Both the position numbers and the translations under genes were made by a program. A DNA stretch of 38,014 bases from Candidatus Woesearchaeota archaeon (lineage in GTDB: Archaea > Nanobdellota > Nanobdellia > Woesearchaeales > JACPBO01): assembly GCA_030651135.1 (NCBI GenBank), contig JAUSCS010000004.1, forward strand, positions 1 through 38,014, written 5' to 3'. Under the pieces are notes generated by a model. It searched no databases, had not been told where the DNA came from, and was given only the letters and a program-made list of their open reading frames with translations. Numbering within the stretch: position 1 is the stretch's first letter; each line of letters opens with the position of its first letter. This document shows positions 7,190-27,387 of the stretch, piece by piece.

Positions 7190-8512
7190 ATGAAAATTCA
7201 CTTTATCGGTATTGGGGGGATAGGTGTTTCAGCATTATCTCAATATTATTTATCAAAAGGGCATGTTGTCAGTGGTTCTGATTTGGCATCTTCTGAAATT
7301 ACAGAACTCTTAAGAGAAAAGGGAATTAAAATTATTATTGGTCCTCATTCTGAATATAATTTAAGCACTGATGCTAACTTAGTTATTTTCAGTCCTGCAG
7401 TAAGACCGGATAATCCAGAATACAAAAAAGCAAAAGAGTTAAAAATCAAACTGCAAAGTTATCCGGAGGCTTTGGGAGACCTAACAAGACAATATTTTAC
7501 AATTGCTGTTTCTGGTACTCACGGAAAAAGCACTACAACATCAATGATTGCTTTGGTTTTAGAAAAATCAGGTCTTGACCCAACTGTTATCGTGGGCACA
7601 AAAATTAAAGAATTTGGAAATCATGCCCTGAGTCCTGCCGAAGGGACAAATTTTAGAGCAGGCAAAAGCAAAATATTGGTTATTGAAGCAGATGAACATT
7701 TTGCTTCATTTTTGAATTATTGGCCTAAAATTATTGTGTTAACAAATATTGAAAAAGAACACTTGGATTACTATAAAAATTTAAATAATATTAAAAAAAC
7801 CTATAAATCGTATTTAAGCCACCTAAAGGAAGGCGATATTTTAGTAGCTAATAAAGAAGATAAAAATATTAATAAAATAACTAAAAAAAATAAATACGAA
7901 ATAACTTTTTATTCAATAAAACAAAAAGAATCAAAAAAGTTTAAAAGAATATTAAAAATACCAGGGAAACACAATATTTATAATGCATTGGCTACTTTAA
8001 CAGTAGCAAGAACTTTGGGAGTTCCAGATAAAACATCTTTTGATGTTCTATCAAAATACAGAGGATCATGGAGAAGGTTTGATTTAAAGCAGGGAAGTGT
8101 CGAAGGCAAGAAAATTATAGTCATATCTGATTATGGACACCACCCAACCGAAGTTTCAGCAACTCTAAAATCTATAAGAGAAAAATACCCAAAGAAAAAA
8201 ATTTGGTGTGTTTTTCAGCCACATCAGTATCAAAGGACATATTATTTATTTGAAAATTTTGTAAAAACTTTTAAATCTTTAAAAATAGACAATATTATAA
8301 TTACTGATATTTTTGATGTTGCCGGACGAGAAAAAAATAAGATTAATATTGAAGTAAATTCAGAAGAATTAGTTAAAAAAATTAATAAAAATAATGTTAG
8401 GTATCTTTTATTGTGCGACATAGAAAGCCATATTAAAGAAAATATAAAGAGTGGAGAAATTTTGGTAATTATGGGTGCTGGTGATATTTATAAACTGGCA
8501 GACAAGTTTTAA
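7190..8512 (+). CDS. murC: UDP-N-acetylmuramate--L-alanine ligase
   Basis: This 440-aa enzyme adds L-Ala to UDP-MurNAc using ATP, the first step of peptide-stem assembly in the cytoplasm. The N-terminal Rossmann motif GIGGIGVSAL (about residues 7-16), the ATP loop GTHGKSTTT (about 109-117) and 'YGHHPTEV' in the C-terminal half are all diagnostic of MurC. It is somewhat shorter than E. coli MurC (491 aa), mostly in loops. It lies about 5 kb upstream of the mraY-murG cluster, separated by tRNA-synthetase genes. An exact copy of the 13-mer TTATTGTGCGACA is embedded near its 3' end (8408-8420). Confidence 0.95.
   Translation: MKIHFIGIGGIGVSALSQYYLSKGHVVSGSDLASSEITELLREKGIKIIIGPHSEYNLSTDANLVIFSPAVRPDNPEYKKAKELKIKLQSYPEALGDLTRQYFTIAVSGTHGKSTTTSMIALVLEKSGLDPTVIVGTKIKEFGNHALSPAEGTNFRAGKSKILVIEADEHFASFLNYWPKIIVLTNIEKEHLDYYKNLNNIKKTYKSYLSHLKEGDILVANKEDKNINKITKKNKYEITFYSIKQKESKKFKRILKIPGKHNIYNALATLTVARTLGVPDKTSFDVLSKYRGSWRRFDLKQGSVEGKKIIVISDYGHHPTEVSATLKSIREKYPKKKIWCVFQPHQYQRTYYLFENFVKTFKSLKIDNIIITDIFDVAGREKNKINIEVNSEELVKKINKNNVRYLLLCDIESHIKENIKSGEILVIMGAGDIYKLADKF
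8408..8420 (+). repeat. Copy 1 of over-represented word TTATTGTGCGACA (inside murC)
   Basis: This is an exact match of the 13-mer, lying within murC codons for LLLCDIE. The reading frame over the word differs from that of the copy in murL-murD, so shared protein sequence does not explain the match. Confidence 0.8.
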
Positions 8513-8538
8513 AAAAAGAGCCGACACATGTCAGCTCT
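8511..8538 (-). terminator. Intrinsic terminator for the 63-aa protein gene
   Basis: The hairpin AGAGCCGAC..GTCAGCTCT (8517-8538, one mismatch) is followed on the minus strand by seven T residues. Its left edge touches the murC stop codon, so this short gap serves two convergent genes. Confidence 0.75.
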
Positions 8539-8587
8539 AAATATTGAGAAGAAAAGATTGAAATGGAATGAAAATAAAAGGGGAGTG

Positions 8588-8779
8588 TTAAAAATCACGA
8601 ATGGTTGATTTTTTTTGAAACCCTTTGCTGCTCATCATTTTGGCGGCAAATTTACTGCTTTGGTTGATTTTTCTTTGACAGCGATCGCACGTATGTTTAC
8701 CCTTGGGTAACATTTCAGTACATCCAGCTCCCAAGCATTGGTTTGGCAGTTCAATTTTTTCCGTTGTTTGAGAATCCAT
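8588..8779 (-). CDS. Small putative zinc-binding protein (63 aa)
   Basis: A longer frame starts at 8827, but the ATG at 8779 is preferred. AAGGA lies about 8-10 bases before it, and a strong promoter upstream puts the transcript start near 8839. The protein reads MDSQTTEKIELPNQCLGAGC at its start and contains a C-x4-C pair (residues 15 and 20) and a C-x2-C pair in 'CDRCQRK', a likely four-cysteine zinc site, followed by a basic tail. It has no transmembrane segment. It is convergent with murC and has its own promoter and terminator. A role in nucleic-acid or ribosome binding is possible but unproven. Confidence 0.6.
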   Translation of the reverse strand: MDSQTTEKIELPNQCLGAGCTEMLPKGKHTCDRCQRKINQSSKFAAKMMSSKGFQKKSTIRDF

Positions 8780-8845
8780 TCTAAATCCTTTCACAAAAGA
8801 TTGACAATGAGCAAAGATATATTCCAACTTTAGGAATACTTTTGT

Positions 8846-8874
8846 ATTCTATTGATTTTATTCTTTTTTGTCAA
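8846..8874 (-). promoter_or_regulatory. Promoter for the 63-aa zinc-type protein
   Basis: On the minus strand, TTGACA (8869-8874), a 17-base spacer and TAGAAT (8846-8851) lie about 65 bases upstream of the ATG at 8779. Confidence 0.7.
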
Positions 8875-8897
8875 TAGAATCGGCTGTTAATATAACC

Positions 8898-8925
8898 TTT
8901 AACTTTTTTACAAAATAGGTATAAT
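8898..8925 (+). promoter_or_regulatory. Probable promoter of the tyrS operon
   Basis: TATAAT at 8920-8925 has a TTTAAC hexamer 16 bases upstream (8898-8903). The -10 matches the consensus and the -35 is weak. The start codon of tyrS follows 19 bases after the -10, so the leader is very short. Confidence 0.55.
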
Positions 8926-8944
8926 AAGATTACATTATAAAATC

Positions 8945-10117
8945 ATGATTAACACAAATTCTGAAAAAATAGACGAAATACTTAAAAGGGGAGTTGAGGA
9001 AGTTATTGAAAGGGAAAGCTTGGAAAAAAAACTAAAATCTGGCAAGAAATTAAGGATAAAATTAGGCATTGACCCCACAAGTCCCAATATGCATGTTGGC
9101 AGGGCTATACCTTTGCTTAAGTTAAAAGATTTTCAGAAACTTGGACATAAAATAGTTTTAATCATAGGTGATTTTACTGGAATTATTGGAGATACCTCTG
9201 ACAAAGAGAGCGAACGACCAATGCTGGATACGAAGACCATAAAAGAAAATATGAAAACATATGCAAAGCAGGCCGGAAAAATTTTAGACATGAAAAAGTG
9301 CGAATTGAGATATAATTCCAGTTGGTTGAAAAAACTTGGATTTGTGGAAATTGGAAGAATGGCTGATTTGTTTGGCTTGCATGAATTTGAAAGCAGAGAA
9401 AATATCAGTTTAAGATTGCGTGAAGGCAAGCGAGTATCTGTGCGTGAATTGTTGTATCCAATTATGCAAGGATATGATTCCGTTGCAGTAAAAGCCGATG
9501 TGGAACTTGGTGGAACTGACCAGCGTTTTAATTTATTATCCGGTAGGGAAATTCAGAGGTATTATAATCAGGAGCCTCAGAATATTATGACAAATCCATT
9601 GATTGAAGGGACCGATGGCCGAAAAATGAGCTCAAGTCGGGGCAATACCATAAACCTTTTGGATAATGCAAAAGAAATGTTTGGAAAAACAATGTCGCTA
9701 CCAGATGAGTTAATTATAAAGTACTTTTTACTGACTACACGCCTACCAATGTCTAAAATTGAGGAAATTAAAAAAATGTCAAATCCAAGAGACCAAAAAT
9801 CAAGATTAGCTTATGAAATTGTAAAAATGTATCACGGAGAGAAAGAAGCCCAAAAAACAGAAGATGAATTTAATAAAACTTTTCGTGATAAAAACCCGAC
9901 TTTTACGGAGTTTAAGATAGAAAAAAAAGAAGTTCCCATTCTTGATTTATTAGTAGAAACTAATTTAACGCCTTCAAAAAACGAAGCAAAAAGACTAATT
10001 TTACAAAAAGCGGTAAAAATAAATGGAGAAGTTCAAGAAGATTGGCAAAAAATTATTAAAATAGTTACGGGAACAAAAATTCAAGTCGGTCCCAGAAAAT
10101 TTTTAGAATTAATTTAA
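8945..10117 (+). CDS. tyrS: Tyrosyl-tRNA synthetase
   Basis: This 390-aa class Ic synthetase charges tRNA-Tyr. The HIGH-type motif is HVGRA (about residues 50-54, after 'LGIDPTSPNM') and the KMSKS loop is KMSSS (about 227-231, 'DGRKMSSSRGNT'). 'GGTDQRFNLLSGRE' lies in the tyrosine/ATP site region. An S4-type RNA-binding domain closes the protein ('LTPSKNEAKRLILQKAVKIN'). It is of the TyrZ-like bacterial type with shortened linkers. A short-leader promoter lies directly upstream, and a REP-like palindrome separates it from the next gene. Confidence 0.95.
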   Translation: MINTNSEKIDEILKRGVEEVIERESLEKKLKSGKKLRIKLGIDPTSPNMHVGRAIPLLKLKDFQKLGHKIVLIIGDFTGIIGDTSDKESERPMLDTKTIKENMKTYAKQAGKILDMKKCELRYNSSWLKKLGFVEIGRMADLFGLHEFESRENISLRLREGKRVSVRELLYPIMQGYDSVAVKADVELGGTDQRFNLLSGREIQRYYNQEPQNIMTNPLIEGTDGRKMSSSRGNTINLLDNAKEMFGKTMSLPDELIIKYFLLTTRLPMSKIEEIKKMSNPRDQKSRLAYEIVKMYHGEKEAQKTEDEFNKTFRDKNPTFTEFKIEKKEVPILDLLVETNLTPSKNEAKRLILQKAVKINGEVQEDWQKIIKIVTGTKIQVGPRKFLELI

Positions 10118-10131
10118 ATTAACCCATCACG

Positions 10132-10163
10132 ACCATTTTGCCAATGGCTAAATGGTGTGGGGG
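10132..10163. repeat. REP-like palindrome with TGGTGTGGGGG tail
   Basis: ACCATTTTGCC (10132-10142) and GGCTAAATGGT (10146-10156) form an almost perfect hairpin with one mismatch. GTGGGGG follows at once. The 11-mer TGGTGTGGGGG at 10153-10163 is shared with the two copies at 5107-5117 and 5193-5203, and the hairpin-then-G-run layout matches the minus-strand copy. It sits between tyrS and the next gene. Confidence 0.6.
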
Positions 10164-10175
10164 CAAAAAAAATTT

Positions 10176-10889
10176 ATGGCAGAAGAAAAAGGCAACTTAG
10201 CATTAGCAATAATTATAGTTATAGTTTTCACAGCAATAATTGCTCTGGGGCTGTATTTGATTTATAACGAATCGTTATTTACAGAAAAACGAGAAAATCC
10301 GGTAGCCTGCACTCAAGAGGCAAAAATTTGTCCTGACGGATCTTCTGTCGGTCGCACGGGCCCTAACTGCGAATTCACCAAGTGTCCAGAAGTACAAGAA
10401 GTATCGGCTTTTGATAGTTTGGTTAATTTTACCATTAGCAAACAAATTAAGTTTAGTGATGGATTAACCGTAACACTCACAGAAATAAATGATTCACGAT
10501 GTAAACCAGGAGTGGTTTGCATACAGGCTGGCGAGCTTTCACCAGTTTTTACTATGATGGGTGGGAATATAGGTGATTTACCAGAAGAAGTTCGACTTGG
10601 CACTTCGACCGTAAAGAAAGTAATTAAAAATGGATACATATTTGAATTAAAAGATGTGATCGAAAATACAGCAACAATCACGATTAGTAAAGAATTAAAA
10701 ACTTTAGGTAATTGCTATATTGGTGGTTGTAGTAAAGAAATTTGTTCCGATAAAGAAGGCGTAGTATCAATTTGTATGTATAAAAAAGAATACGCATGTT
10801 ATAAAAATGCTAAATGCGAAAGACAAATAAATGGCCAATGCGGATGGACGCAAGAACCACAGCTTCAAGCTTGCTTAAAAACAAACTAA
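10176..10889 (+). CDS. Membrane-anchored protein with C-terminal eight-cysteine cluster
   Basis: I start this gene at ATG 10176 and not at the in-frame ATG 10152, because the latter lies inside the REP-like repeat. The 237-aa protein has one hydrophobic anchor (about residues 8-30), then a small cysteine module ('ACTQEAKICPDGSSVGR', 'GPNCEFTKCP') that is common in Parcubacteria surface proteins. A beta-rich middle follows. The C-terminal domain holds eight cysteines, starting CYIGGCSKEIC and ending with 'GQCGWTQEP' and a last Cys, and matches my recollection of the eight-cysteine-cluster domain. It is probably extracellular and disulfide-bonded. aspS starts one base after its stop. Confidence 0.7.
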   Translation: MAEEKGNLALAIIIVIVFTAIIALGLYLIYNESLFTEKRENPVACTQEAKICPDGSSVGRTGPNCEFTKCPEVQEVSAFDSLVNFTISKQIKFSDGLTVTLTEINDSRCKPGVVCIQAGELSPVFTMMGGNIGDLPEEVRLGTSTVKKVIKNGYIFELKDVIENTATITISKELKTLGNCYIGGCSKEICSDKEGVVSICMYKKEYACYKNAKCERQINGQCGWTQEPQLQACLKTN

Positions 10890-10890
10890 T

Positions 10891-12354
10891 ATGCCTAGAT
10901 TTTTAGTAAAAGACACAGCAAAACATATAGGAGAAAAAGTAAAAGTTGCCGGCTGGGTAAACAGCAGAAGGGCCCACGGTAAAATTTTATTCATTGACCT
11001 CCGCGACAGAAGCGGAGTTTTGCAAGTAGTTTTTGTTCCATCAAATAAAGAGGTTTATGAATTGGCTCAAAACTTAAGGCCAGAATGGGTGGTGGAAATA
11101 ACAGGTCAAATTGTAAAGAGACCGGAAAATATGATAAACCCAAAAATTAAAACAGGGGAAGTTGAGCTTTCAGTGGAATCTTTAAATATTTTGTCAGAAG
11201 CGCAAACTTTGCCTTTTTCAATTGACCAGTCAGGTTATGAAATAAACGAAGAAATAAGAATGAAGTATAGATATTTGGATTTAAGAAGAGAAAGATTAAA
11301 AAATAATCTTATAGCTCGCAACACGGTCATAAAATTTATTAGAGATTTTTTAGACAAAGAAGATTTTGTTGAAATTGAAACGCCAATGCTTACAAAATCA
11401 ACGCCCGAGGGGTCAAGAGATTTTATTGTTCCTTCAAGATTACATCCGGGGAGTTTTTATGCTCTTCCGCAATCTCCACAGCAATACAAACAACTTTTAC
11501 AAGTTGCAGGTTTTGAAAGATATTTTCAAATAGCTCGTTGTTTAAGAGATGAAGACCCAAGAGGTGACCGCCAAATAGAACACACTCAGCTTGATTTGGA
11601 AATGAGTTTTGTTGAACAAGAAGACATAATAAATTTAACCGAAAGACTTTTTATAACTTTAATTAAAAATCTGTATCCGAATAAAAAAATTCAGGAAGTT
11701 CCTTTTCCAAGATTAAGTTACAAGGAGGCAATGAAAAAATATAATTCAGATAAGCCGGACCTCCGCAAAAATAAATCAGATAAAGACCTCCTGGCATTTT
11801 GCTGGGTAATTGACTTTCCATTTTTTGAAAAGGATGATAACGGCGGCTGGACTTTTACCCACAATCCCTTTTCTGCGGCAAAGCCAGAATTTAAAGAAGA
11901 TTTGTTAAATAAAAAAAACATAGGAGATATTTTAACAACTCAATATGATATTGTGCTAAATGGATCAGAGGTAGGAGGTGGAAGCATTAGAAATCACAAG
12001 CCGGAAGCAGTGGAATCTGTATTTGAAATAATTGGTTACAAAAAAGAAGAGATTAAAGAAAAATTCGGACATATGTTGGAGGCCTTCACTTATGGAGCTC
12101 CGCCCCATGGAGGAATTGCTCCTGGTATTGATAGAATTTTATCTATTCTGCATTCAGAACCAAACATCAGAGAAGTAATTGCTTTCCCCAAAACGGGAGA
12201 CGGAAGGGATTTAATGATGCAGGCTCCCAGCGAGATTTATAAAAAACAATTAGAAGAGTTGCACATACGAGTTAGTTCTGCCAAACCTAAAAATCCCAAA
12301 AAATTGACGGGCAAAAAATTACGTAAACCCGCTAAAAATAAGTCCAATGGATAA
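10891..12354 (+). CDS. aspS: Aspartyl-tRNA synthetase lacking the GAD insertion domain
   Basis: This 487-aa class IIb synthetase has an N-terminal OB anticodon-binding domain ('KVAGWVNSRRAHGKILFIDL', about residues 17-36), motif 2 ('FQIARCLRDEDPRGDRQIEH', about 210-230) and motif 3 ('GGIAPGIDRILSIL', about 407-420). It is of bacterial type, as shown by 'NGSEVGGGSIR' and 'IREVIAFPKT'. The GAD domain that normally separates 'SDKPDLR' from 'WVIDFPFFE' (roughly 130 residues in E. coli) is replaced by about a dozen residues, which accounts for the short length. A basic tail (PKKLTGKKLRKPAKNK) is extra. It may be discriminating or non-discriminating for Asn. Its last 8 bases overlap the next gene. 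Confidence 0.95.
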   Translation: MPRFLVKDTAKHIGEKVKVAGWVNSRRAHGKILFIDLRDRSGVLQVVFVPSNKEVYELAQNLRPEWVVEITGQIVKRPENMINPKIKTGEVELSVESLNILSEAQTLPFSIDQSGYEINEEIRMKYRYLDLRRERLKNNLIARNTVIKFIRDFLDKEDFVEIETPMLTKSTPEGSRDFIVPSRLHPGSFYALPQSPQQYKQLLQVAGFERYFQIARCLRDEDPRGDRQIEHTQLDLEMSFVEQEDIINLTERLFITLIKNLYPNKKIQEVPFPRLSYKEAMKKYNSDKPDLRKNKSDKDLLAFCWVIDFPFFEKDDNGGWTFTHNPFSAAKPEFKEDLLNKKNIGDILTTQYDIVLNGSEVGGGSIRNHKPEAVESVFEIIGYKKEEIKEKFGHMLEAFTYGAPPHGGIAPGIDRILSILHSEPNIREVIAFPKTGDGRDLMMQAPSEIYKKQLEELHIRVSSAKPKNPKKLTGKKLRKPAKNKSNG

Positions 12355-15348: not shown

Positions 15349-17880
15349 ATGAAGTCAAAACCAACTATTTTTGAGTTCACTTCTTATAAATTTGAGCCCA
15401 CTCAAAAAAGAGTTTTTTTTAATTACAAAACGGAATTTAAAGAAAAAAAAGATACTCTTTTTTTTACAGAAACCATAATTTTGCCAGAAACGGCTGATTT
15501 TGAAAAATTACCGATAGGGTTTTTAAATAAGATATTTGAAAGCTTGCATTTAGTACTGGGCGTTAGTTATTGGAAATCTTATTGTGCGACAAAGATAAAA
15601 GTAAATTATTCATTATCAAAAGAGGAAGCCTATTTTTGGAATATAGTTTACAAAAAAGGATTAGGCGAATTTTTTTATAAAAATAATCTTAATCCTAAAA
15701 TTTCTCCCAAGTTTTCGTTTAAAAACAATGTAAAACCAATTTTTTATAAATTAGATAAAAATAATAAATGTCTTGTTGCTGTCAGTGGGGGAAAGGATTC
15801 AATAGTAGCAACAGAGCTTTTAAAGAGTCAAAATTTTGATATTACGGCTTTTTTTGTACAAACACAAAAAGAGTCAGATCTTGTTAATGAAATAATAAAA
15901 ATATCAGGAATAAAATCGATAAAAATAAAAAGAATATTGGACAAAAAGATATTTGAACATCATAAATACAACGGCCATGTCCCTGTCTCCGCCATGTATG
16001 CTTTCTTGGGTATTTTATGCTCTGCCTTATATAAGTATTCTTATTGTATTATGTCCAATGAATACAGCAGTAATTTTGGTAATACAGAATATAAGGGAGA
16101 AACTATAAACCATCAGTGGAGCAAATCTTCAGAATTCGAAAACCTGTTTTCAAATTACGTTAAAAATTTTATAACTCCGGATATTTATTATTTTTCTTTA
16201 TTAAGACCGTTCTATGAAATTCGTATAGTGGAACTTTTTTCAAAATATAAAAAATATTTTACTAATTTTTCCAGTTGCAATAATAATTTTATAATTCAAC
16301 AAGATAAATTACGCAAAAAGAAAAATAAGGATTTGTGGTGCAAAGAATGTCCAAAATGTATTTTTGTGTTTACTTTATTATCTGCTTTTTTGTCTAAAAA
16401 AGAGCTGATTCACATTTTTAAAAAAAATCTCTATGCTGAAAAAAAATTAATACCTTTATTTAATGACATCCTTGGCTTTGGCAAAATGAAACCATTTGAT
16501 TGCGTGGGAACTTTTAAAGAAGCGAGGGTAGCTTTATATCTGGGTTCTAAAAAATTTAAAAATAATTTAATTATTAATACATTTTTGCCTAAAATAAAAA
16601 AATCAGAATCTTTAATAAAGGATGTCTTTGGCACTAATTTGTCGCTAAATATTCCTAGCCAGTTTAGATTTTCGGGCATAAAAAATGTCTTAATCTTAGG
16701 ATATGGCAGAGAAGGTAAAATTACAGAAAAGTATATTAAAAAAAATTACCCTAATTTAAAAATTGGGGTAGCCGACATTAAATTAGATAAAAATTATTTA
16801 AAAAAGCAAAAAGATTACGATATGGCTATAAAGAGCCCAGGAATTCCTAAGAGTTTTGTGAAAATTAATTATACGACAGCTACAAATATATTTTTTTCTG
16901 AAATTAAAGAATTAGGAAACAAAACAATTGGTATTACAGGAAGCAAAGGGAAAAGCACAACCGCGCGTCTTATTTACTTTATTTTAAAAGAGTCTGGAAA
17001 AAATGTGAGAATTTTGGGCAATATTGGAGAACCAATGCTTAAAGTGTTTTTAGAACCAATTAAAAAAGACCAGATATTTGTATTAGAGCTTTCAAGTTAT
17101 CAATTAGATGATATTAATTTTTCTCCCAATATTGCAGTGGTTACCAACTTGTTTAAAGAGCATATGGATTATCATTTGGGGGCAGAAAATTATTATTTAG
17201 CCAAGCAAAATATAATTAATTTTCAAAGTAAGAATGATATTTTTGTTTATAACCCAAAATATAAAAAACTAGTTTCCTGGGCTAAAGAATCTTATTCAAA
17301 GACAATTCCGTTTGTGAGAAACATTCCATTGGAGAATTTGAACATTCCTTTAATTGGAGAACATAACAAAGAAAATATTAGAGCGGCAATTACAGTTGCC
17401 AAAATTTTTAAAGTTCCAGACAGTGTAATAAAAAGAGCAATAGAAAATTTTAGCGGTTTGCCACACAGATTAGAGTTTGTTGGGGAATTCGCCGGCATTA
17501 AATTTTATGATGACGGCAGTTCAACTAATCCAGAATCGGCAATATCGGCAATTAAATCTCTTAAAAATATTGATACGATTTTTCTTGGAGGTCAAGACAG
17601 GGGATATGATTTTTCACAATTGGAAAAAACAATTAAAAAATATAAAATAAGAAATATAGTATTATTTCCCGACAGCGGAAATAAAATTTTAAAATCACAA
17701 AGAAATCTTAACGTACTGCATACTTCTAAAATGGAAGAAGCGGTTAAATTTGCTTACAAAAACACCAAAAAGGGAAGTATATGCCTGTTATCGGGGGGCT
17801 CGCCAAGCTATTCTTTGTGGAAAGATTTTGAAGACAAGGGAAATCAATTTAAATTAATGGTCAAAAAAAATAAGCATTAA
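15349..17880 (+). CDS. murL-murD: Fused MurL epimerase - MurD ligase
   Basis: This 843-aa protein has two enzymes. Residues about 1-440 match MurL, the epimerase that converts UDP-MurNAc-L-Ala-L-Glu to the D-Glu form (described in Xanthomonas): 'GLGEFFYKNNL', an ATP loop VSGGKDS at 145-151, 'MSNEYSSNFGNTEYKGE', 'YYFSLLRPFYEI' and the cysteine cluster 'WCKECPKCIFVF'. Residues about 444-843 are a MurD ligase: Rossmann motif 'VLILGYGREGK', ATP loop GSKGKSTT at 531-538, 'LELSSYQLD' and 'FYDDGSSTNPESA'. The MurD half would add L-Glu, and the MurL half would then invert it. Fusion ensures coupling. It contains an internal copy of the TTATTGTGCGACA word. ftsW follows after 8 bases. Confidence 0.88.
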   Translation: MKSKPTIFEFTSYKFEPTQKRVFFNYKTEFKEKKDTLFFTETIILPETADFEKLPIGFLNKIFESLHLVLGVSYWKSYCATKIKVNYSLSKEEAYFWNIVYKKGLGEFFYKNNLNPKISPKFSFKNNVKPIFYKLDKNNKCLVAVSGGKDSIVATELLKSQNFDITAFFVQTQKESDLVNEIIKISGIKSIKIKRILDKKIFEHHKYNGHVPVSAMYAFLGILCSALYKYSYCIMSNEYSSNFGNTEYKGETINHQWSKSSEFENLFSNYVKNFITPDIYYFSLLRPFYEIRIVELFSKYKKYFTNFSSCNNNFIIQQDKLRKKKNKDLWCKECPKCIFVFTLLSAFLSKKELIHIFKKNLYAEKKLIPLFNDILGFGKMKPFDCVGTFKEARVALYLGSKKFKNNLIINTFLPKIKKSESLIKDVFGTNLSLNIPSQFRFSGIKNVLILGYGREGKITEKYIKKNYPNLKIGVADIKLDKNYLKKQKDYDMAIKSPGIPKSFVKINYTTATNIFFSEIKELGNKTIGITGSKGKSTTARLIYFILKESGKNVRILGNIGEPMLKVFLEPIKKDQIFVLELSSYQLDDINFSPNIAVVTNLFKEHMDYHLGAENYYLAKQNIINFQSKNDIFVYNPKYKKLVSWAKESYSKTIPFVRNIPLENLNIPLIGEHNKENIRAAITVAKIFKVPDSVIKRAIENFSGLPHRLEFVGEFAGIKFYDDGSSTNPESAISAIKSLKNIDTIFLGGQDRGYDFSQLEKTIKKYKIRNIVLFPDSGNKILKSQRNLNVLHTSKMEEAVKFAYKNTKKGSICLLSGGSPSYSLWKDFEDKGNQFKLMVKKNKH
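15579..15591 (+). repeat. Copy 2 of over-represented word TTATTGTGCGACA (inside murL-murD)
   Basis: This is an exact 13-mer inside the MurL coding part (codons for SYCATK). The next bases (AAGATAAA) also resemble the flank of copy 3 (AAAATAAT), so the match extends beyond the core. Confidence 0.8.
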
Positions 17881-21666: not shown

Positions 21667-21679
21667 TTATTGTGCGACA
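21667..21679 (+). repeat. Copy 3 of TTATTGTGCGACA (left edge of accessory region)
   Basis: This exact 13-mer starts one base after the gltX stop codon. The longer match TTTATTGTGCGACAAAA is shared with copy 7 at 27375 in the same orientation, so the two look like direct repeats bounding the 5.7-kb accessory segment. Confidence 0.85.
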
Positions 21680-21694: not shown

Positions 21695-22024
21695 ATGAAC
21701 GAAAAAGGATTTATAAAAAATATTGTTATTATAGCCGTGCTTTTGCTAGTAGTTTTTTTAAGCCAACAGCCTTATTTTAAAAAATATGGCAATGATTTAT
21801 ATTTAAAGGCAAAACCGCGAATTGAAGTATATTTGACAAAAGCAACAGATTGGATAAAAAATAACGTCTATCCAAGGGTGAGTGGGGAAGTGGAGCAGAA
21901 AAGCGCGGTAATACAGCAAGAAATTAATAAACAAAAAAATAATATTATGCAAAATACTTGGGAAAAAATAAAAGATTATTTTGCAAATATTTTCTCAAAA
22001 GTTTCCGGCACATCTGTAAAGTAG
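21695..22024 (+). CDS. Small membrane-anchored protein, unknown
   Basis: This 109-aa protein has an N-terminal hydrophobic helix (residues 8-24) followed by a basic, helical soluble part ('KAKPRIEVYLTKATDWIKNN', 'VIQQEINKQKNNIMQNTWEK') with coiled-coil tendency. There is no cysteine and no signal cleavage site. It is probably attached to the membrane with its tail outside. It begins 29 bases after gltX and could be cotranscribed with it. I do not recognise the family. It lies just inside the copy-3 word. Confidence 0.6.
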   Translation: MNEKGFIKNIVIIAVLLLVVFLSQQPYFKKYGNDLYLKAKPRIEVYLTKATDWIKNNVYPRVSGEVEQKSAVIQQEINKQKNNIMQNTWEKIKDYFANIFSKVSGTSVK

Positions 22025-22032
22025 GCAAGGCA

Positions 22033-22061
22033 TTGACATGGTATTTATAGAGAGTTATTGT
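22033..22061 (+). promoter_or_regulatory. Candidate distal promoter of the recombinase gene
   Basis: TTGACA (22033-22038) is followed after 17 bases by TATTGT (22056-22061). The -35 is perfect and the -10 matches 4 of 6. A second -10 lies downstream at 22110. Confidence 0.45.
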
Positions 22062-22109
22062 TAGTATATAGTATGTCGCAAAATGTAGGTAAACCGAAGT
22101 AATATATAG

Positions 22110-22115
22110 TATAAT
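22110..22115 (+). promoter_or_regulatory. TATAAT -10 element upstream of the recombinase gene
   Basis: A perfect TATAAT lies 21 bases before the ATG at 22136, and the -35 region has no good match. Between the two candidate promoters, TATGTCGCAAAAT (22070-22082) is a degenerate relative of the 13-base word. Confidence 0.45.
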
Positions 22116-22135
22116 AGGGCAATAAGGCCTAACTT

Positions 22136-23107
22136 ATGAAAAAGTCATCAAAACCATTAAAAGAACACTTGCTAGACTTTTTGGATTATTGTGAGGTTGA
22201 AAAAGGTTTGCGCAATAATACTCAGGAAAATTACAAAAAATATCTTGAAAAGTTTTTTTATTGGCTAAACCATACTAAAAATAGCTCCCTACTTCCCCAC
22301 CAACTGACCGCAGAACACATTTGGACCTATAGATTGTTCCTATCTCGCACCCCAAGTCCGGCTACGGGTAAATTGCTGTCTAAAGGTACTCAAAACTACT
22401 ATCTTGTCGCTTTAAGAGGCTTTTTAGCCTATTTTGTGGCAAAAGACATACTTTCACTACCCCCAGGTAAAATAACCCTTCCTAAGGCCGATAAAGCCCA
22501 AAAAACGGTTAAATTTCTTAGTTTAGAGCAGATTGGCAAGCTTTTGGTTTCAGTTGAGTCAAAAGACGCTATTTCTATTCGCGATAGAGCTATTTTGGAG
22601 AGCTTTTTTTCAACCGGTTTGCGTATTGCAGAATTGGTATCTTTAAATCTTGAGCAGTTTAACAGTTTAAAAGAAAAAAAAGATATGGAGCTTGGTGTTA
22701 TTGGTAAAGGTGGTAAACCGCGAGTGGTTTATTTTTCTGAACGCGCCCTCAACTTCATAAAAAAATATTTACAAATAAGAAATGGAATAGAAAATGCAAA
22801 TACCAAAGCTTTATTTATAAACTTCCGTGATACAAAAGGCGAAAACGATTCTCGGTTAACTCCAAGATCAATTGAAAGAATGGTTAAAAAATATGCTTTG
22901 TTGTCTGGTATACCTGTCTTTACTACCCCGCACACCCTGCGTCATAGTTACGCAACAGACCTATTAAACCAAGGAGTTGATTTGCGAAGCATCCAAGAAT
23001 TTTTAGGCCACAGCAATATTGCCACTACCCAAATTTACACGCACGTTACTAACAAGCGTCTCCGTGACATCCACCACCAATTTCATTCTGACCCAGACAA
23101 AAAATAG
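22136..23107 (+). CDS. Tyrosine site-specific recombinase, XerC/XerD-like
   Basis: This 323-aa protein has an N-terminal SAM-like DNA-binding domain (about residues 8-110, 'LLDFLDYCEVEKGLRNNTQ') and a C-terminal catalytic domain with the full set: Arg163 in 'STGLRIAELV', His266 and Arg269 in 'HTLRHSYATDLL', His292 in 'LGHSNIATT' and nucleophile Tyr301 in 'IYTHV'. It cuts and rejoins DNA at specific sites. It could be the chromosome-dimer Xer enzyme or a mobile-element integrase. Its place among accessory genes, each bounded by copies of TTATTGTGCGACA, makes a role in moving these genes worth testing. Its GC content is a little higher than that of the core genes. Confidence 0.9.
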   Translation: MKKSSKPLKEHLLDFLDYCEVEKGLRNNTQENYKKYLEKFFYWLNHTKNSSLLPHQLTAEHIWTYRLFLSRTPSPATGKLLSKGTQNYYLVALRGFLAYFVAKDILSLPPGKITLPKADKAQKTVKFLSLEQIGKLLVSVESKDAISIRDRAILESFFSTGLRIAELVSLNLEQFNSLKEKKDMELGVIGKGGKPRVVYFSERALNFIKKYLQIRNGIENANTKALFINFRDTKGENDSRLTPRSIERMVKKYALLSGIPVFTTPHTLRHSYATDLLNQGVDLRSIQEFLGHSNIATTQIYTHVTNKRLRDIHHQFHSDPDKK

Positions 23108-23122
23108 TAACTAAAATATATT

Positions 23123-23368
23123 ATGAAAATATCAAATGGCGTAGTCCACAAAGTTCCCGCAGACCTAAAAAAGCCCCTTATCGCTGACCCAAAAGCCTTG
23201 GAAAAATGGGAAGACATTACCCCGCTTGCGCGTAACGAGTGGCTCTGTTGGATTGACTCAGTCAAGAAATCAGAAACAAGAAATCTGCATATTAAACGAA
23301 CATGCACAGAGCTTAAGGAAGGAAAACGCCGACCTTGTTGCTGGGCCGGTTGTTCTCACCGCAAATAA
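23123..23368 (+). CDS. YdeI/OmpD-associated family small protein
   Basis: This 81-aa protein corresponds to the conserved C-terminal module of the YdeI/OmpD-associated family: 'VPADLKKPLIADPKALEKWE', 'DITPLARNEWLCWIDSVKK', 'ELKEGKRRPCCW'. The paired cysteines and the basic GKRRPCCW end are typical. Family members have been linked to bacteriocin or peptide tolerance, but the mechanism is not known. It begins 15 bases after the recombinase stop, on the same strand, and ends at a hairpin terminator. It travels with the recombinase between two inverted word copies. Confidence 0.75.
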   Translation: MKISNGVVHKVPADLKKPLIADPKALEKWEDITPLARNEWLCWIDSVKKSETRNLHIKRTCTELKEGKRRPCCWAGCSHRK

Positions 23369-23369
23369 A

Positions 23370-23390
23370 AAGAGGGCTTACTGTCCTCTT
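23370..23390 (+). terminator. Hairpin terminator after the YdeI-like gene
   Basis: Arms AAGAGG (23370-23375) and CCTCTT (23385-23390) are followed by a T-rich stretch. The hairpin lies directly after the stop at 23366-23368, with a copy of the repeated word 17 bases beyond it. Confidence 0.65.
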
Positions 23391-23406
23391 CTGTTTTAGT
23401 CTAATT

Positions 23407-23419
23407 TGTCGCACAATAA
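23407..23419 (-). repeat. Copy 4 of TTATTGTGCGACA (between YdeI-like gene and nuclease operon)
   Basis: This exact 13-mer on the minus strand lies in the convergent gap. It is in direct orientation with copy 5 (26305), and the two exactly bracket the three-gene restriction-like operon. Confidence 0.85.
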
Positions 23420-23425
23420 ATAGTT

Positions 23426-24520
23426 TTATTTTCCAGATTTAGTTCGGTTATCTTCTCTGCACAGCATCTGGCAATTTTTTGAAATCGTTTTTCCTCCCGC
23501 GTGCCAGGGTTTTATATGGTCTGCTTCCATTTCTTCTAACGCAAAATGTTTTTTGCACCAAACACATTTACCCCTTTTCCGCTCGTACGCCTCGCGTTTC
23601 ATTTTATCAGTAAAAGCACGAATATTAAGAGACTTTTCGTTTCGAGTTAAAACATATTCGTAAATGCCGGATTTTTTAGTTACATCTTCGTCTTGCATCA
23701 ATTCTGTGATTTCCGCTTTTAATTTAATAGTATCCTGTTTCTTGTCTTTGAATTTGTTATACAACTCGCCCCATGGCACACTATTCATTTCCCGGCGGTA
23801 ATCGGTAAAAGTTACGCGCGCCCACGCGATTACATGTTGAAAATAATTCCATAATTCATCGGCATTTGTGCTGTGCTGATGTTTGGCCATATAATCTTCT
23901 ATTTTGCCGTCATTTATCCACAAAAGCGCGGTTTCCAAATACTCCTGCCGGATTGGCGAACCGCTCACTAATTGCCCGCCGTCATGGGCCAGCAAATATG
24001 CTGCGCAATTTGATTTGCTAAATTTTAATTTTGCATCAGAAAGCCATGGCCCGGTATAAACCGCGTTGCGAATTTCTTGATCGGTTAATTTCTCTCCAGC
24101 AATATTGATAATCCTAAACCAATCCAAACGCTCTTTGTCTGTACCTTCGCAAAAGTAAATCATCAGCTCATAATCCAAAATTTTATCTTGTTCTTCTTTG
24201 GTCAAATTGTGAAAAAACCGGTCATTCAGCGAAAAATCGCCTGTAACATACTGCCCAATACTAATAGTGCGCTGTTGACCGTCTAGCACTTCATAGCCAC
24301 CATCTTCTCTAATCATCCAATACATCACGTTCAGCGGAAAGCTGTTTTTAATGGTTTCTATCACGGCATTGCGTTGCTTTTCCTTGTACACAAACTCACG
24401 CTGATATTTTGGACGAATATCAAGCTTGCTATCATAAGCCACCACGCCTCCCTCTCCAGGAATTTCTTTGTAGCCGTCTACGACCTTACGCACTGGAATT
24501 TTATGTAAATCAATTTTCAT
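23426..24520 (-). CDS. DUF262 - HNH nuclease (GmrSD-like)
   Basis: This 364-aa protein has an N-terminal DUF262/ParB-like domain with the signature DGQQRTISIG (80-89) and 'YQREFVYKEKQRN' before it. These proteins use nucleoside-triphosphate hydrolysis to control DNA cutting. The C-terminus is an HNH nuclease: zinc pair CVWC (about 319-322), catalytic 'EADHIKPWHAGG' and 'NCQMLCREDNRTKSGK'. The layout is related to the GmrSD modification-dependent restriction enzymes, but the order and size differ. It is the last gene of a minus-strand operon with a DNA methylase and an unknown protein, so a restriction or phage-defence role is likely. Confidence 0.85.
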   Translation of the reverse strand: MKIDLHKIPVRKVVDGYKEIPGEGGVVAYDSKLDIRPKYQREFVYKEKQRNAVIETIKNSFPLNVMYWMIREDGGYEVLDGQQRTISIGQYVTGDFSLNDRFFHNLTKEEQDKILDYELMIYFCEGTDKERLDWFRIINIAGEKLTDQEIRNAVYTGPWLSDAKLKFSKSNCAAYLLAHDGGQLVSGSPIRQEYLETALLWINDGKIEDYMAKHQHSTNADELWNYFQHVIAWARVTFTDYRREMNSVPWGELYNKFKDKKQDTIKLKAEITELMQDEDVTKKSGIYEYVLTRNEKSLNIRAFTDKMKREAYERKRGKCVWCKKHFALEEMEADHIKPWHAGGKTISKNCQMLCREDNRTKSGK

Positions 24521-24552
24521 ATTTTTTTTATTTTACCATGAAATTTGTATAA

Positions 24553-25179
24553 CTATTTTTTAGGAAATTCTAACTTAACTCTAATTAAGTTTTGCTTTGA
24601 GAAGAAATTCCTTATCTTATCCTCCTCACCCCAATAATCTTTCAGGTGGAATTTATACTCACCAATACCAAGTGTTTGACTACCCCATGTTAAAAAGTGA
24701 TTAGTGTTTGTTTTTATATTTTTATTCGTTTTTGCAAAAATAGAGATGGCTAAAAGTGCCCAAATAGCTCTGGTTGGCATATAAAAAATATTATCCCCGA
24801 ATTGCCAATAAGATTTCCCATCCTCCACCGGTAAAAATCCATAACCAGCGGGAATTTCCTTCCCGTGAGCGTGTGAACAACGAAAGATATTATATACAAC
24901 GTCAGCAAAGTCTGGATCTGTGATAGGTTTATTACTTTTCATTATTGTCAGTCTTCTAAATTTTGTTTCCTCAAGATTGAGTCCTGCACCAATCATTGGT
25001 TCAATAATCCAATAATAATCCCTGATTAGTTTTACATAATCTTCGCGTCCCGCATCTACCTTTTTTACATATTTTTGGGCAGTTCCATCCAATGCTATAC
25101 ATGCATGTAAAAGTGCTGCGTCAAATTCATTCTGTAAAAAATCATCAAATGATTTAATAACGTGCTGTTCTATCCTCAT
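24553..25179 (-). CDS. Unknown protein with RX4H motif (possible HEPN-like nuclease)
   Basis: This 208-aa soluble protein is the middle gene of the restriction-like operon (17 bases after the methylase stop, 32 before the nuclease start). The N-terminus is helical ('FDDFLQNEFDAALLHACIAL'), and mid-protein there is 'FRCSHAHGKE', where Arg100 and His105 fit the R-x4-H pattern of HEPN ribonucleases. The position of the motif after helices is suitable, but the residue after Arg is Cys and not the usual polar one. I do not recognise a named family; the HEPN idea is a hypothesis from motif and context only. Confidence 0.6.
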   Translation of the reverse strand: MRIEQHVIKSFDDFLQNEFDAALLHACIALDGTAQKYVKKVDAGREDYVKLIRDYYWIIEPMIGAGLNLEETKFRRLTIMKSNKPITDPDFADVVYNIFRCSHAHGKEIPAGYGFLPVEDGKSYWQFGDNIFYMPTRAIWALLAISIFAKTNKNIKTNTNHFLTWGSQTLGIGEYKFHLKDYWGEEDKIRNFFSKQNLIRVKLEFPKK

Positions 25180-25196
25180 AATTTATTTACAAATAA

Positions 25197-26222
25197 TTAT
25201 TTTTTCACTTTCTTATTTTTAATTAAAATTCTAAAAAATGGACACTTTCCATTTATTATTAAATCCTTATCGTCGTCACCTTTGCGAAATTTTATTATTT
25301 CAAATTGACCTGGATTATATTTATCAATAAAAGTGATTGGCACACCCATTGCGCCAGTATAATTTTCTGGGATTTCGGCTACTTTTGAGACTTCGATTGC
25401 ATCATAATTGTCATATTTTGGATATTCTTCGGGATTGTATTTTTTATACAAGATTAAATATTCTTTATGCTTTTCGACCTCCATATTTGTGAACCAGCAT
25501 GAAGTCGATACGCGCGCAATTTTTCTTCCTTCCTCATCTATATGATGAAAAAGCTCCCAGTCGTCTGGCACAACAAAGAACATTCCAATATTAAAATTTG
25601 TATAGCCTGTACGGAGTTTATTTTCTTTAATTAACTTAAAAATCTCTTTGTAGGTTAGCGAATTTGTATTGCCGATGATTACAAACTTTTTATCATATTC
25701 CGACAATTGCGCCACATATTCACGAAAAAGAGAAAACGGTGGATTAGTTACGACAATATCTGCTTCTTTCAGCAGTTCAATGCATTCATCGCTACGGAAA
25801 TCACCCGTACCTTTTAGGGGCGTAGCAATATTAGCATTGTGCTTCAACAACGATTTTACATCGGTAAGATCAATGGCACCGTCTTTGTTGGCATCCGGTA
25901 CCTCACTGATTTCAATTTTAATTGGTTGTTTGCCTTTTGATCCTTTTATTTCGAGCAACGACAATTGTCCTCCAATAATCGGTGAACCGGAATAACTTGT
26001 GGCAATAAGTTTTTTTAATTTTAACGCGTTAAAATTGGCGGCAAAATATTTAAAAAAATTACTCTCAAACGGGTCGTCGCAATTACAATACACTATCTTG
26101 CCACGAAACTGCTCTTTGTAATGCTTTAACTCTTTCTCAATATCAACAAGCTGGGTATAAAACTCATCTTTTTTTGCTTGATTTGCTTTGTGTAAGTTTT
26201 TATTCGAAGATTTCTTTTCCAT
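25197..26222 (-). CDS. EcoRI-type adenine-specific DNA methyltransferase
   Basis: This 341-aa protein of the EcoRI methylase family has a characteristic N-terminus ('LHKANQAKKDEFYTQLVDIE', 'VYCNCDDPFESNFFKYF') and the catalytic motif NPPF at 160-163 ('DIVVTNPPFSLF'). It transfers a methyl group from S-adenosylmethionine to N6 of adenine. A calcium-loop-like insert DANKDGAIDLTDV (110-122) resembles an EF-hand, and similar inserts occur in this family as I recall. No EcoRI-like endonuclease is adjacent; the DUF262-HNH protein downstream is the candidate cutter. It is the first gene of the minus-strand operon. Confidence 0.88.
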   Translation of the reverse strand: MEKKSSNKNLHKANQAKKDEFYTQLVDIEKELKHYKEQFRGKIVYCNCDDPFESNFFKYFAANFNALKLKKLIATSYSGSPIIGGQLSLLEIKGSKGKQPIKIEISEVPDANKDGAIDLTDVKSLLKHNANIATPLKGTGDFRSDECIELLKEADIVVTNPPFSLFREYVAQLSEYDKKFVIIGNTNSLTYKEIFKLIKENKLRTGYTNFNIGMFFVVPDDWELFHHIDEEGRKIARVSTSCWFTNMEVEKHKEYLILYKKYNPEEYPKYDNYDAIEVSKVAEIPENYTGAMGVPITFIDKYNPGQFEIIKFRKGDDDKDLIINGKCPFFRILIKNKKVKK

Positions 26223-26272
26223 ATATGATTATCTAAATTTACTCCTTTTTTGATAAAGTTTCAATCCAACTA

Positions 26273-26298
26273 AAAAGTCGAGCATAAACCCGACTTTT
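26273..26298. terminator. Hairpin upstream of the methylase operon
   Basis: AAAAGTCG (26273-26280) and CGACTTTT (26291-26298) form a perfect 8-bp hairpin that could stop transcription from the 92-aa gene upstream or act as a leader structure for the methylase. Copy 5 of the repeated word begins seven bases to its right. Confidence 0.5.
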
Positions 26299-26304
26299 CC
26301 AACC

Positions 26305-26317
26305 TGTCGCACAATAA
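26305..26317 (-). repeat. Copy 5 of TTATTGTGCGACA
   Basis: This exact 13-mer on the minus strand lies between the methylase operon and the 92-aa gene. It is a direct repeat with copies 4 and 6. Confidence 0.85.
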
Positions 26318-26334
26318 AAACATAAATTTAATAA

Positions 26335-26363
26335 ATAAAAAACCGCCAAATAATTTTAGCGGT
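26335..26363 (-). terminator. Intrinsic terminator of the 92-aa gene
   Basis: On the minus strand, ACCGC (26359-26363) and GCGGT (26342-26346) form the stem, followed by six or so T residues. It lies 40 bases beyond the stop at 26403. Confidence 0.75.
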
Positions 26364-26402
26364 AAAACCGACGGTTGATGAAGTCTTGCGACCTTGTTTA
26401 AT

Positions 26403-26681
26403 TTATCCTTTGAGAAATTCTTGATTAATTCCACATGACAAAAGTTCTTTTTGCACATTTTCAGGAGATGGCAAGCCAGTTTTATTAGTAGTGGCTCTGC
26501 TAAGCCGACGTAAGATTTCAGTTTTTAGAAGAATGATTTCTGCACGAATACATTCCACTAACTCCATCTTTGTTGCCGAGGGAGTAAATTCTTCTGCTAC
26601 TCTTAGTATTAGTTTTTCAATTAATTCTTCATCAGACATTTTTATTACTTCTTCCAAAAATTCTTCAATATAGCTTGTCAT
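26403..26681 (-). CDS. Small helical protein, unknown (92 aa)
   Basis: AGGAG lies 7-8 bases before the ATG at 26681. The protein is acidic and almost wholly helical ('YIEEFLEEVIKMSDEELIEK', 'ELVECIRAEIILLKTEILRR'), with two cysteines and no membrane segment. It has its own terminator and lies alone between direct copies 5 and 6 of the repeated word, so it behaves like a one-gene cassette. It could be an antitoxin-like or regulatory protein; nothing in the sequence proves a function. Confidence 0.65.
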   Translation of the reverse strand: MTSYIEEFLEEVIKMSDEELIEKLILRVAEEFTPSATKMELVECIRAEIILLKTEILRRLSRATTNKTGLPSPENVQKELLSCGINQEFLKG

Positions 26682-26769
26682 CTTTTTCTCCTGGTAATAG
26701 ATTTAAAATGAAAGGTTCTAATTGTATTTGTACTATAATAATATCTAATTTGTCAATTCTGGATAACTA

Positions 26770-26798
26770 TTGTCGCACAATTGAATATTTGGTATAAT
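26770..26798 (+). promoter_or_regulatory. Promoter of the LAGLIDADG gene overlapping the repeated word
   Basis: TATAAT (26793-26798) has TTGTCG (26770-26775) at 17 bases. The -35 hexamer is part of copy 6 of the repeated word, so a protein bound to the word would compete with RNA polymerase. Confidence 0.5.
26771..26781 (-). repeat. Copy 6, 11-base core ATTGTGCGACA
   Basis: This copy keeps the 11-base core on the minus strand, but the two outer bases differ (CA replaces TT). It lies upstream of the LAGLIDADG gene. Confidence 0.75.
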
Positions 26799-26823
26799 GA
26801 GTTATATTAAAATTTAAAACAAT

Positions 26824-27321
26824 ATGTCATCAAAAACCGATATCAATATTCCATTATTAGTTAACAAAGAAGGATGCTTTGATTTGCAATTTAGGAAAGA
26901 CACAAGGCGCGAACGAACCAATTCACCAACATACTACAGATGGAAAATTCAGTTTGTTATTACAGGTCCTAAAGAAAAACAAAAGATGTTTAATAATGTT
27001 AAAAGCGTAATTGGGTGTGGAGATGTTTGTATTACAAAAGAACAAGCGAGATATTCTGTGCAAAAAATTGATGATATAAATAATATAGTTGTTCCTTTTT
27101 TCCGGAAAAATAAACTGGCAGATAAAAAGAAAAGAGATTTTGAGCTATGGCAGAAAGCAGTTGGCATTATATATAAAAACAAAGGAAAATATCTTGCGAA
27201 ATGGAAGAAAAACGATTTACTTTCTTTAATTGAAATTCAAAAATCGGCGGTAAAATATAAAAATAAACCAAGGCAACCAAAGTGGATTCAGATGGCTCAA
27301 GAGCTGGCTAAGACTCTTTAA
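26824..27321 (+). CDS. Free-standing LAGLIDADG-type homing endonuclease
   Basis: This 165-aa single-domain protein has a LAGLIDADG-like helix that is degenerate at its start ('IPLLVNKEGCFDLQFRKD') and the typical body 'YRWKIQFVITG', 'VKSVIGCGDVCITKEQARYS', 'VQKIDDINNIVVPFF', 'DFELWQKAVGII'. Close relatives, as I recall, are found in introns of CPR ribosomal RNA genes. It makes a sequence-specific double-strand cut that promotes its own copying. No rRNA or intron is visible around it, so it is free-standing here. It has its own promoter and terminator. The acidic catalytic residue is probably the Glu before GCF. Confidence 0.8.
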   Translation: MSSKTDINIPLLVNKEGCFDLQFRKDTRRERTNSPTYYRWKIQFVITGPKEKQKMFNNVKSVIGCGDVCITKEQARYSVQKIDDINNIVVPFFRKNKLADKKKRDFELWQKAVGIIYKNKGKYLAKWKKNDLLSLIEIQKSAVKYKNKPRQPKWIQMAQELAKTL

Positions 27322-27374
27322 ATTGTAGTTGCTATTTGCGTTCGCTTCCCTATTTTGAGGTATGCCCCATTATT

Positions 27375-27387
27375 TTATTGTGCGACA
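27375..27387 (+). repeat. Copy 7 of TTATTGTGCGACA (right edge of accessory region)
   Basis: This exact 13-mer lies after the LAGLIDADG gene, in direct orientation with copy 3, with AAAATATAT following. It lies 16 bases before the terminator at 27404. Confidence 0.85.

Follow-up and report, generated by a model that had tools for sequence, protein, structure and literature searches.

A polar word converging on dif in Candidatus Staskawiczbacteria suggests a replication fork trap with a LAGLIDADG-fold reader

Introduction

Two unrelated fork traps had been described at the time of PMC6549158, which limits tus and rtp to four clades. The same paper describes ter sites as non-palindromic sequences that point to dif and block forks coming from dif (PMC6549158). 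The promoter areas of both reader genes, tus and rtp, contain ter sites (PMC10331603). Here we describe a short polar word that converges on the dif/xer locus in Candidatus Staskawiczbacteria, together with a candidate reader protein of the LAGLIDADG fold. The word was noticed in a 38,014-bp stretch of DNA (the window), which is the entire contig C4 of a 1.415 Mb bin (G000) deposited as a Candidatus Woesearchaeota archaeon.

An initial annotation of the window had regarded the word as a possible signal for DNA uptake or recombination. Comparison of related genomes indicates that it belongs to a real, lineage-specific, polar terminus system. In our judgement the chances are somewhat better than even that the word and its LAGLIDADG reader form a replication fork trap at dif, independent of Tus/ter and RTP/ter.

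Results

A polar word faces dif from both sides

The initial annotation listed six exact copies of the 13-mer TTATTGTGCGACA and a seventh copy retaining its 11-base core, and our scan reproduced both their number and their positions. Three plus-strand copies lie to the left of a tyrosine recombinase gene (22136-23107), at 8408..8420 (within a Mur-ligase gene, initially called murC), 15579..15591 (within a gene for an 843-aa Mur-ligase-domain protein) and 21667..21679 (between gltX and a small membrane-protein gene). Three minus-strand copies lie to its right, at 23407..23419, 26305..26317 and 26771..26781, the last of which, upstream of a LAGLIDADG gene, has an intact core and two mismatches outside it. 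All six point toward dif, with the copies at 21667 and 23407 being the innermost left and right ones, while a further plus-strand copy (27375..27387), just 3' of the LAGLIDADG gene, is the only one in the window facing away. Gene strand and GC skew both switch at the recombinase gene. With up to two mismatches allowed, the window contained 7 matches against 1.09 expected, a number attained in none of 100 shuffles, which supports the over-representation noted initially. A check of strand symmetry, proposed at the same time, revealed strong asymmetry; the convergence on dif/xer had been missed.

Polarity was scored in 12 xer-bearing stretches, comprising the window, contigs of seven relatives and four short loci (loci L061 and L062 were left out). 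The sequence TTRTGCGACA faced xer in 85 of 88 copies, and the 11-bp core, ATTRTGCGACA, faced xer/dif in 82 of 84. Of the latter, the eight longer contigs, which total 614 kb, contribute 70 copies that face xer/dif and 1 that faces away, and the four short loci contribute 12 and 1, respectively. Both away-facing core copies (window position 27377 and L058 position 4499) are located within 100 bp of a LAGLIDADG gene. On the dif contig of the more distant genome G072, all six core copies face dif. The polarity extends to contigs without dif: in G060, G061, G062 and G069, each of the nine such contigs with at least two core copies carries them on one strand only, and all 19 core copies of G069 agree with the sign of the contig GC skew. 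Copies with one mismatch in the core were less strictly oriented (22 toward, 13 away); seven of the 13 are dif-arm sequence, so that outside dif the ratio is 22 to 6.

The density of toward-facing core copies was highest close to the recombinase gene, at 0.688 per kb within 0-2 kb of the xer centre, and amounted to 0.229, 0.113, 0.062 (10-20 kb), 0.057 and 0.069 per kb (40-80 kb) at successive distances outward. The innermost convergent pair brackets dif in all nine relatives tested (1513-3094 bp; in G065, G067 and G068 the sequence beside xer is too short to score) and also in the window (1738 bp), where the distance was measured by hand because the degenerate right arm of dif escaped the pattern search.

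Sequence, abundance and genic context of the word

The word is roughly 16 bp long and asymmetric (YTTT-ATTRTGCGACA-A), with the core placed behind a T-rich stretch. In the 70 copies that face dif, the core is preceded by four T-rich bases and followed by A, and its fourth position is G in 84% and A in 16%. With one mismatch allowed, the 13-mer was found 11-27 times per genome in 11 genomes (G060-G070), on many contigs, compared to 0-2 times for a reversed-pattern control, which bears out the lineage-specificity proposed initially. G072, whose Xer protein shows 56% identity, contains 16 matches, mostly TTATTATGCGACA, compared to 1 for the control, and G071 contains none at this threshold. The core itself occurs 16-25 times per genome (G060, G061, G062 and G069), with 43 of the 76 copies on the dif contig.

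When the 11-mers that occur 12 or more times in the eight longer contigs were ranked by Markov z, ATTGTGCGACA came first, with 59 copies toward and 1 away against 0.2 expected. Some A-rich words were equally skewed in these 614 kb, but they exceeded expectation at most few-fold. In a de novo word search of 200 kb near Xer-like genes of G011 and G040, the best 11-mer reached z 9.2, compared to 71.8 in the 614 kb; this is a weak control, since the skew there has no clear switch and the sample sizes differ.

In the eight contigs 44 of 71 core copies lie outside called genes, though genes cover 92% of the sequence, in agreement with the intergenic bias first described. The same-strand copies within genes are distributed over frames 0, 1 and 2 as 10, 7 and 9, while the single antisense genic copy (G069) belongs to the promoter of a LAGLIDADG gene whose frame was called too long, which places the copy at codon 8. 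Of the 63 positional classes, 59 were found in one genome only; the clustering is crude and splits a few classes, and the figure of 59 is slightly too high because rounding split one site common to G061 and G062. Judging from these comparisons, the positions of the word turn over while its polarity stays. Even use of frames and positional turnover rule out protein conservation as the cause, as had been argued from two copies in core genes. Because 87% of the called coding sequence lies on the leading strand, a gene-strand or RNA signal is not fully separable from the polarity; among the 44 non-genic copies, 3 are flanked on both sides by genes of the opposite strand.

The dif site and the chromosome terminus

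Next to the recombinase gene at the skew switch, the window has a predicted Xer/dif locus (22074-23107). Its putative dif (22074..22101, plus strand) is a 28-bp site with two 11-bp arms and a 6-bp spacer, and the adjacent gene (22136..23107, plus strand) encodes an Xer-type tyrosine recombinase of 323 aa (PF00589, E 2e-38). The site was located by alignment of the region upstream of xer in the window and 11 relatives, of which 10 are alike and G072 has diverged. In the clade, dif reads TGTCGCAAAATGTAGGTAAA and then has a right arm similar to GCGACGT (the site of G060 starts CGTCGC), and in G072 it reads GGTTCGCATAA-TTATAG-TTAAGCGCACC. The left arm in the window is TGTCGCAAAAT. Its right arm is degenerate compared to the relatives; the site may be weakened, or may be paired with a diverged Xer preference. 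Upstream of more distant Xer genes (L064, L066, L068 and L069), dif-arm-like sequences of the GTCG/GCGAC type were observed.

The sites converge on the GC-skew switch, i.e. the chromosome terminus. When up to 10 contigs are pooled, the kb that immediately precedes dif has a skew of +0.129 and the kb that follows it one of -0.106, and the maximum of the cumulative skew lies within 232 bp of dif in nine of 10 contigs. Since xer shares its coding strand with the genes to its left, the switch at dif is not a gene-strand effect there.

The left dif arm, when reversed, resembles the word. In the window and in nine of the 10 like relatives it reads ATTTTGCGACA, one base off the core, whereas in G060 it reads ATTTTGCGACG, two bases off, and in G071 (L061 1-40) it is exactly ATTGTGCGACA.

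The dif contigs also carry separate G-rich polar words, with toward:away counts in eight contigs of 41:0 for GCAGGGGA, 45:2 for AGGGGATT and 37:5 for GGGNAGGG, and with a flat density profile. These words are candidates for the FtsK-orienting polar sequences (KOPS) of the lineage. On stretches of G069 off the dif contig, GGGNAGGG follows the skew sign in 24 cases and opposes it in 5, while GCAGGGGA does so in 7 and 3 cases, respectively.

A LAGLIDADG-fold protein as candidate reader

When the genes up to 15 kb from dif were clustered for 11 genomes, few proved to be nearly universal: gltX and a small membrane protein were common to all 11, and xer, a LAGLIDADG_1 gene and two cell-wall gene clusters were each present in 10. 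The LAGLIDADG_1 gene is located 1.3-14 kb from dif and is coded outward in every one of the 10 genomes; G067 has it on another contig. In the window it occupies 26824..27321 (plus strand) and encodes a single-chain protein of 165 aa with a predicted LAGLIDADG fold (PF00961, E 2.6e-12).

An alignment-based search recovered orthologues with E <= 1.5e-65 in all 13 word-bearing genomes (the window contig counted) and in none of 17 others, three of which gave weak matches (G078, 7.9e-12; G005, 2.9e-9; G001, 4.8e-8). The word search behind this division was uneven, in that G005, G012, G020, G040 and G054 were searched for the exact 13-mer only, and the remaining twelve for ATTNTGCGACA, where 0-4 matches per genome carry R (in G071 just the dif arm). 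The sequence of G071 amounts to 0.4 Mb, so the absence of the gene there is weaker evidence. In the wider phylum E <= 1e-10 was reached by 6 of 371 genomes, namely the bin of the window and five others with matches at 1.1e-13 or weaker. A viral origin of the gene found no confirmed relative among the 50 pattern matches of one viral-contig scan.

Twelve of the 13 orthologues, those of G065 and G067 among them, have a core copy upstream of the gene, and the thirteenth (G068) has a one-base variant there. The nearest upstream core, in reverse complement, is placed at -53 to -63 in eight of 10 orthologues, at -22 in L060 and at -135 in L062, and five have a second copy. In 11 orthologues the core is followed by a -10-like hexamer (TATAAT, TATACT or TACAAT), after a gap of 11 bases in 10 of them and 8 bases in one; G070 has no such hexamer after its upstream core, and G068 was not scored. 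The upstream core overlaps the -35 place of the gene, as in the window, where the copy at 26771..26781 stands 11 bases ahead of TATAAT (26793-26798). This arrangement suggests that the protein, acting at this copy, would tune the promoter of its own gene.

The protein model had a mean pLDDT of 88.9, and Foldseek matched it to I-TnaI with E 6.1e-9 and a query TM of 0.71; the best matches were chains of I-TnaI, I-LtrI, I-SmaMI, I-OnuI and I-CreI. Invariant residues account for 34 of 50 positions in the sheet regions 17-49 and 66-82, compared to 32 of 115 elsewhere, as would be expected if the modelled sheets form a fixed DNA-binding face. The motif acid, at the position assigned in this analysis, has been kept as D or E in 11 of 13 orthologues but is replaced by N in G067 and by V in G068, and its loss in these two indicates that cutting is not the conserved function. 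A Pfam scan of the candidate listed PF00961 and neither Tus (PF05472) nor RTP (PF02334), the whole genomes being unsearched with these two models; Pfam recognised no further DNA-binding domain in the candidate. Taken from co-occurrence, location and promoter site, the 165-residue LAGLIDADG-fold protein is the likely reader of the word. An 11-bp core would suit half of a LAGLIDADG target. A protein-binding site had been considered initially because the core is a near-dyad, and the word is probably protein-bound.

Assignment of the window to Candidatus Staskawiczbacteria

By sequence similarity, the window is a Candidatus Staskawiczbacteria contig inside a mixed bin. The 11 closest relatives of its recombinase (L050-L060; 77-91% identity) belong to Candidatus Staskawiczbacteria, one of them being labelled only Patescibacteria group. 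Translated open stretches were compared by blastp with Staskawiczbacteria stretches and with two relatives of the bin. For the window, 35 queries matched the former (median 65% identity) and 3 the latter (median 33%). Contigs C1, C2 and C11 resemble the window, with 7, 3 and 4 Staskawiczbacteria-matching queries (medians 79, 67 and 81%), while sampled 20-kb pieces of the large contigs C6, C9, C10 and C13 gave 2, 3, 2 and 1 matches with medians of 30-48%. Contigs C3, C5, C7, C8 and C12 were not placed by blastp.

All six exact 13-mer copies of the bin are on C4, and for this reason a contig-private repeat seemed to be an explanation, which was dropped since the bin is mixed. Confinement to one region, named in the initial annotation as an argument against a genuine signal, is therefore apparent only, as the relatives carry the word on many contigs. 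The mixture of the bin makes bin-wide word counts uninformative about the genome of the window, and its other contigs, with two ATTRTGCGACA copies outside C4, serve as an accidental negative control. The exact 13-mer was found in three of 60 genomes, a set made up of the bin and its relatives; the two besides the bin have one copy each.

Other features of the window

The gene at 21695..22024 (plus strand), beside dif, encodes a small protein with an N-terminal hydrophobic segment and no Pfam match; it holds the same place beside dif in all 11 genomes compared. The region 23426-26222, amid the site-bearing part of the window, codes for a GmrSD/HNH-domain protein and an EcoRI-type adenine methylase, and is a probable restriction-modification island at the terminus. 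A TrwB/HerA-like ATPase gene (1346-3781) and a Replication-relaxation family gene (36759-37622) are located near opposite ends of the contig.

Discussion

A replication fork trap would account for several non-palindromic sites that face dif from both arms and surround the terminus. In such a trap, one protein monomer would occupy each asymmetric site with a single face toward dif. Forks bound for dif would reach the permissive T-rich side and pass, while a fork overshooting dif would reach the GCGACA side and be stopped, so that forks would fuse inside the innermost pair, 1.5-3.1 kb apart, beside the dimer-resolution site. The terminator protein would be a domesticated homing-endonuclease fold. 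At the level of sequence this proposal builds on demonstrated features, namely the polar sites, the density gradient, the bracketing pair, the skew switch, the co-occurrence of word and gene, and the promoter site.

Several points weigh against this proposal. We infer both the binding and the polar arrest of forks from sequence, and the polarity and gradient also fit a signal orienting a translocase. A skew switch at dif is no proof of fork arrest, and one is reportedly found at dif in E. coli as well. In one of the 10 contigs, that of G069, the skew maximum lies 15 kb from dif, and the piece of G067 extends only 1 kb past dif and has little weight for the skew. G067 also has an irregular place, on a contig other than its xer contig, where, at about 0.4 kb upstream of the LAGLIDADG gene (L258, G067:C16), two exact 13-mers separated by 51 bp face opposite ways. 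Four word-bearing genomes (G060, G063, G066 and G072) have a second, weak LAGLIDADG match elsewhere (E 7e-10 to 1.3e-12), so that the candidate is not alone in its class, and nuclease activity may persist in the 11 of 13 orthologues that keep D or E. Finally, the comparison rests on draft contigs, with no closed chromosome among them.

A signal like KOPS or the SpoIIIE recognition sequences (SRS), by which the word would orient FtsK or another translocase to dif for dimer resolution, read by the FtsK gamma domain or via the LAGLIDADG protein, appears unlikely. KOPS are described as lying on the leading strand, denser toward dif and inverted at dif (PMC5357621), much like the word. FtsK gamma is present above the cut-off in 12 of the 13 relatives G060-G072, but its recognition helix (GYSRAARLIDMLE) looks canonical beside those of E. 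coli and B. subtilis. The separate G-rich words have a much flatter gradient; the polarity of GGGNAGGG persists off the dif contig, that of GCAGGGGA only weakly. The word itself is 11-16 bp long and not G-rich, and KOPS would not be expected to come with a linked gene that carries the word in its promoter. Nor is it a skewed octamer spread across the whole chromosome, since in G069 the core is present on just four contigs (C3, C4, C9 and C11) and more than half of the core copies counted in four genomes sit on dif contigs.

The likeness between the word and the reversed left dif arm allows two readings: Xer may recognise the word, or the ancestor of the LAGLIDADG protein may have homed into dif. 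In the first case the words would be isolated Xer half-sites, bound by Xer as oriented landing sites, which we consider quite unlikely in spite of the near identity of the arm to the core and its exact match in G071. That genome has xer and the exact arm, yet neither another core copy in its 0.4 Mb nor a LAGLIDADG orthologue, and this combination favours homing of the ancestor into dif, subject to the caveat of its size. G073-G080, which carry related Xer genes, contain 0-6 ATTNTGCGACA matches compared to 0-3 for the reversed control. T at the fourth core position, as in the arm, is not enriched, the seven ATTTTGCGACA copies in the eight contigs all facing away like the dif arm, and the dif arms of G072 diverge from the word at their outer end. 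For the recombination word proposed initially, the link that remains is indirect and consists in the orientation of the sites toward the locus of dimer resolution by dif/Xer and in the similarity of the word to one dif arm.

An organiser of the terminus domain or a regional regulator, comparable to MatP/matS or to the operator of a regulon and without direct action on forks, would explain the density peak at the terminus and the copy at the LAGLIDADG promoter. Bridging or repression, however, needs no polarity, and copies occur within genes in all frames and mostly at positions private to one genome, with polarity kept; we regard this explanation as decidedly improbable.

A DNA-uptake sequence, a Chi-like recombination hot spot or a family of homing-endonuclease targets is suggested by the short word, the intergenic excess and the nearby recombinase and LAGLIDADG genes, but each is a very remote prospect given the small number of copies, the terminus gradient, the convergent polarity, the absence of the word from several sampled contigs, the coexistence of many copies per genome and the lack of polarity of the E. 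coli Chi octamer here (13:12). Uptake in particular, favoured in the initial annotation, is disfavoured by copy number, gradient and polarity, since the known DNA-uptake sequences (DUS and USS) are far more numerous and do not converge on the terminus.

Returning to the fork trap, we see a chance just short of even that it is the third, independently evolved one in bacteria, with a domesticated single-chain LAGLIDADG homing endonuclease as its terminator and an ancestor that may have homed into dif. Such an ancestor is suggested because the word nearly equals one dif arm. If this holds, a reduced Patescibacteria genome would have a trap with an unrelated reader, termination would be tied directly to dif, and a homing-endonuclease fold would have been recruited to chromosome maintenance, all in a small system of one 165-aa protein and a 16-bp site. 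Even without fork arrest, a polar word that is not G-rich, together with a candidate reader, would represent a new layer of terminus organisation. In keeping with the initial view that the word was undescribed, no description of it was found in the literature searched (titles and the starts of abstracts, subscription papers and preprints aside), nor, within the same bounds, a paper combining Patescibacteria with FtsK, dif and Xer, or Staskawiczbacteria with replication and terminus.

Comparison with known systems

KOPS and SRS, read by FtsK and SpoIIIE, are described as polar, inverted at dif and denser nearby, as is the word; unlike them, it is longer, not G-rich and mainly near the terminus, and G-rich polar words are present separately in the same contigs. 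The matS site of MatP marks a terminus domain too, but it is palindromic, whereas the word is asymmetric and polar. WhiA likewise has a homing-endonuclease-type domain within a DNA-binding regulator. There it is joined to a helix-turn-helix, whereas the candidate reader has no further Pfam DNA-binding domain and goes with terminus sites. The archaeal ASPS are short polarised sequences directed toward dif in single-Xer lineages (Cortez 2010, PMC2958812). They differ in being skewed words of 4 bases, for which HerA is suggested as a translocase (PMC2958812).

Tus/ter, known from Enterobacterales and some relatives, resembles the present system in its non-palindromic sites flanking the terminus and pointing toward dif, and in a site within the promoter area of the reader. 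It differs in that the candidate reader here has a LAGLIDADG fold, the sequence of the sites is another and the innermost pair is only 1.5-3.1 kb apart. The E. coli reader gene, tus, lies near the terminus, as does the LAGLIDADG gene, and RTP/ter shares with the present system a tight innermost pair. The reader protein of RTP/ter in Bacillus is small too, and the promoter area of its gene contains a ter site. RTP acts as dimers on a ter site of two halves (PMC10331603), whereas here a single LAGLIDADG-fold protein would read one asymmetric 11-bp core.

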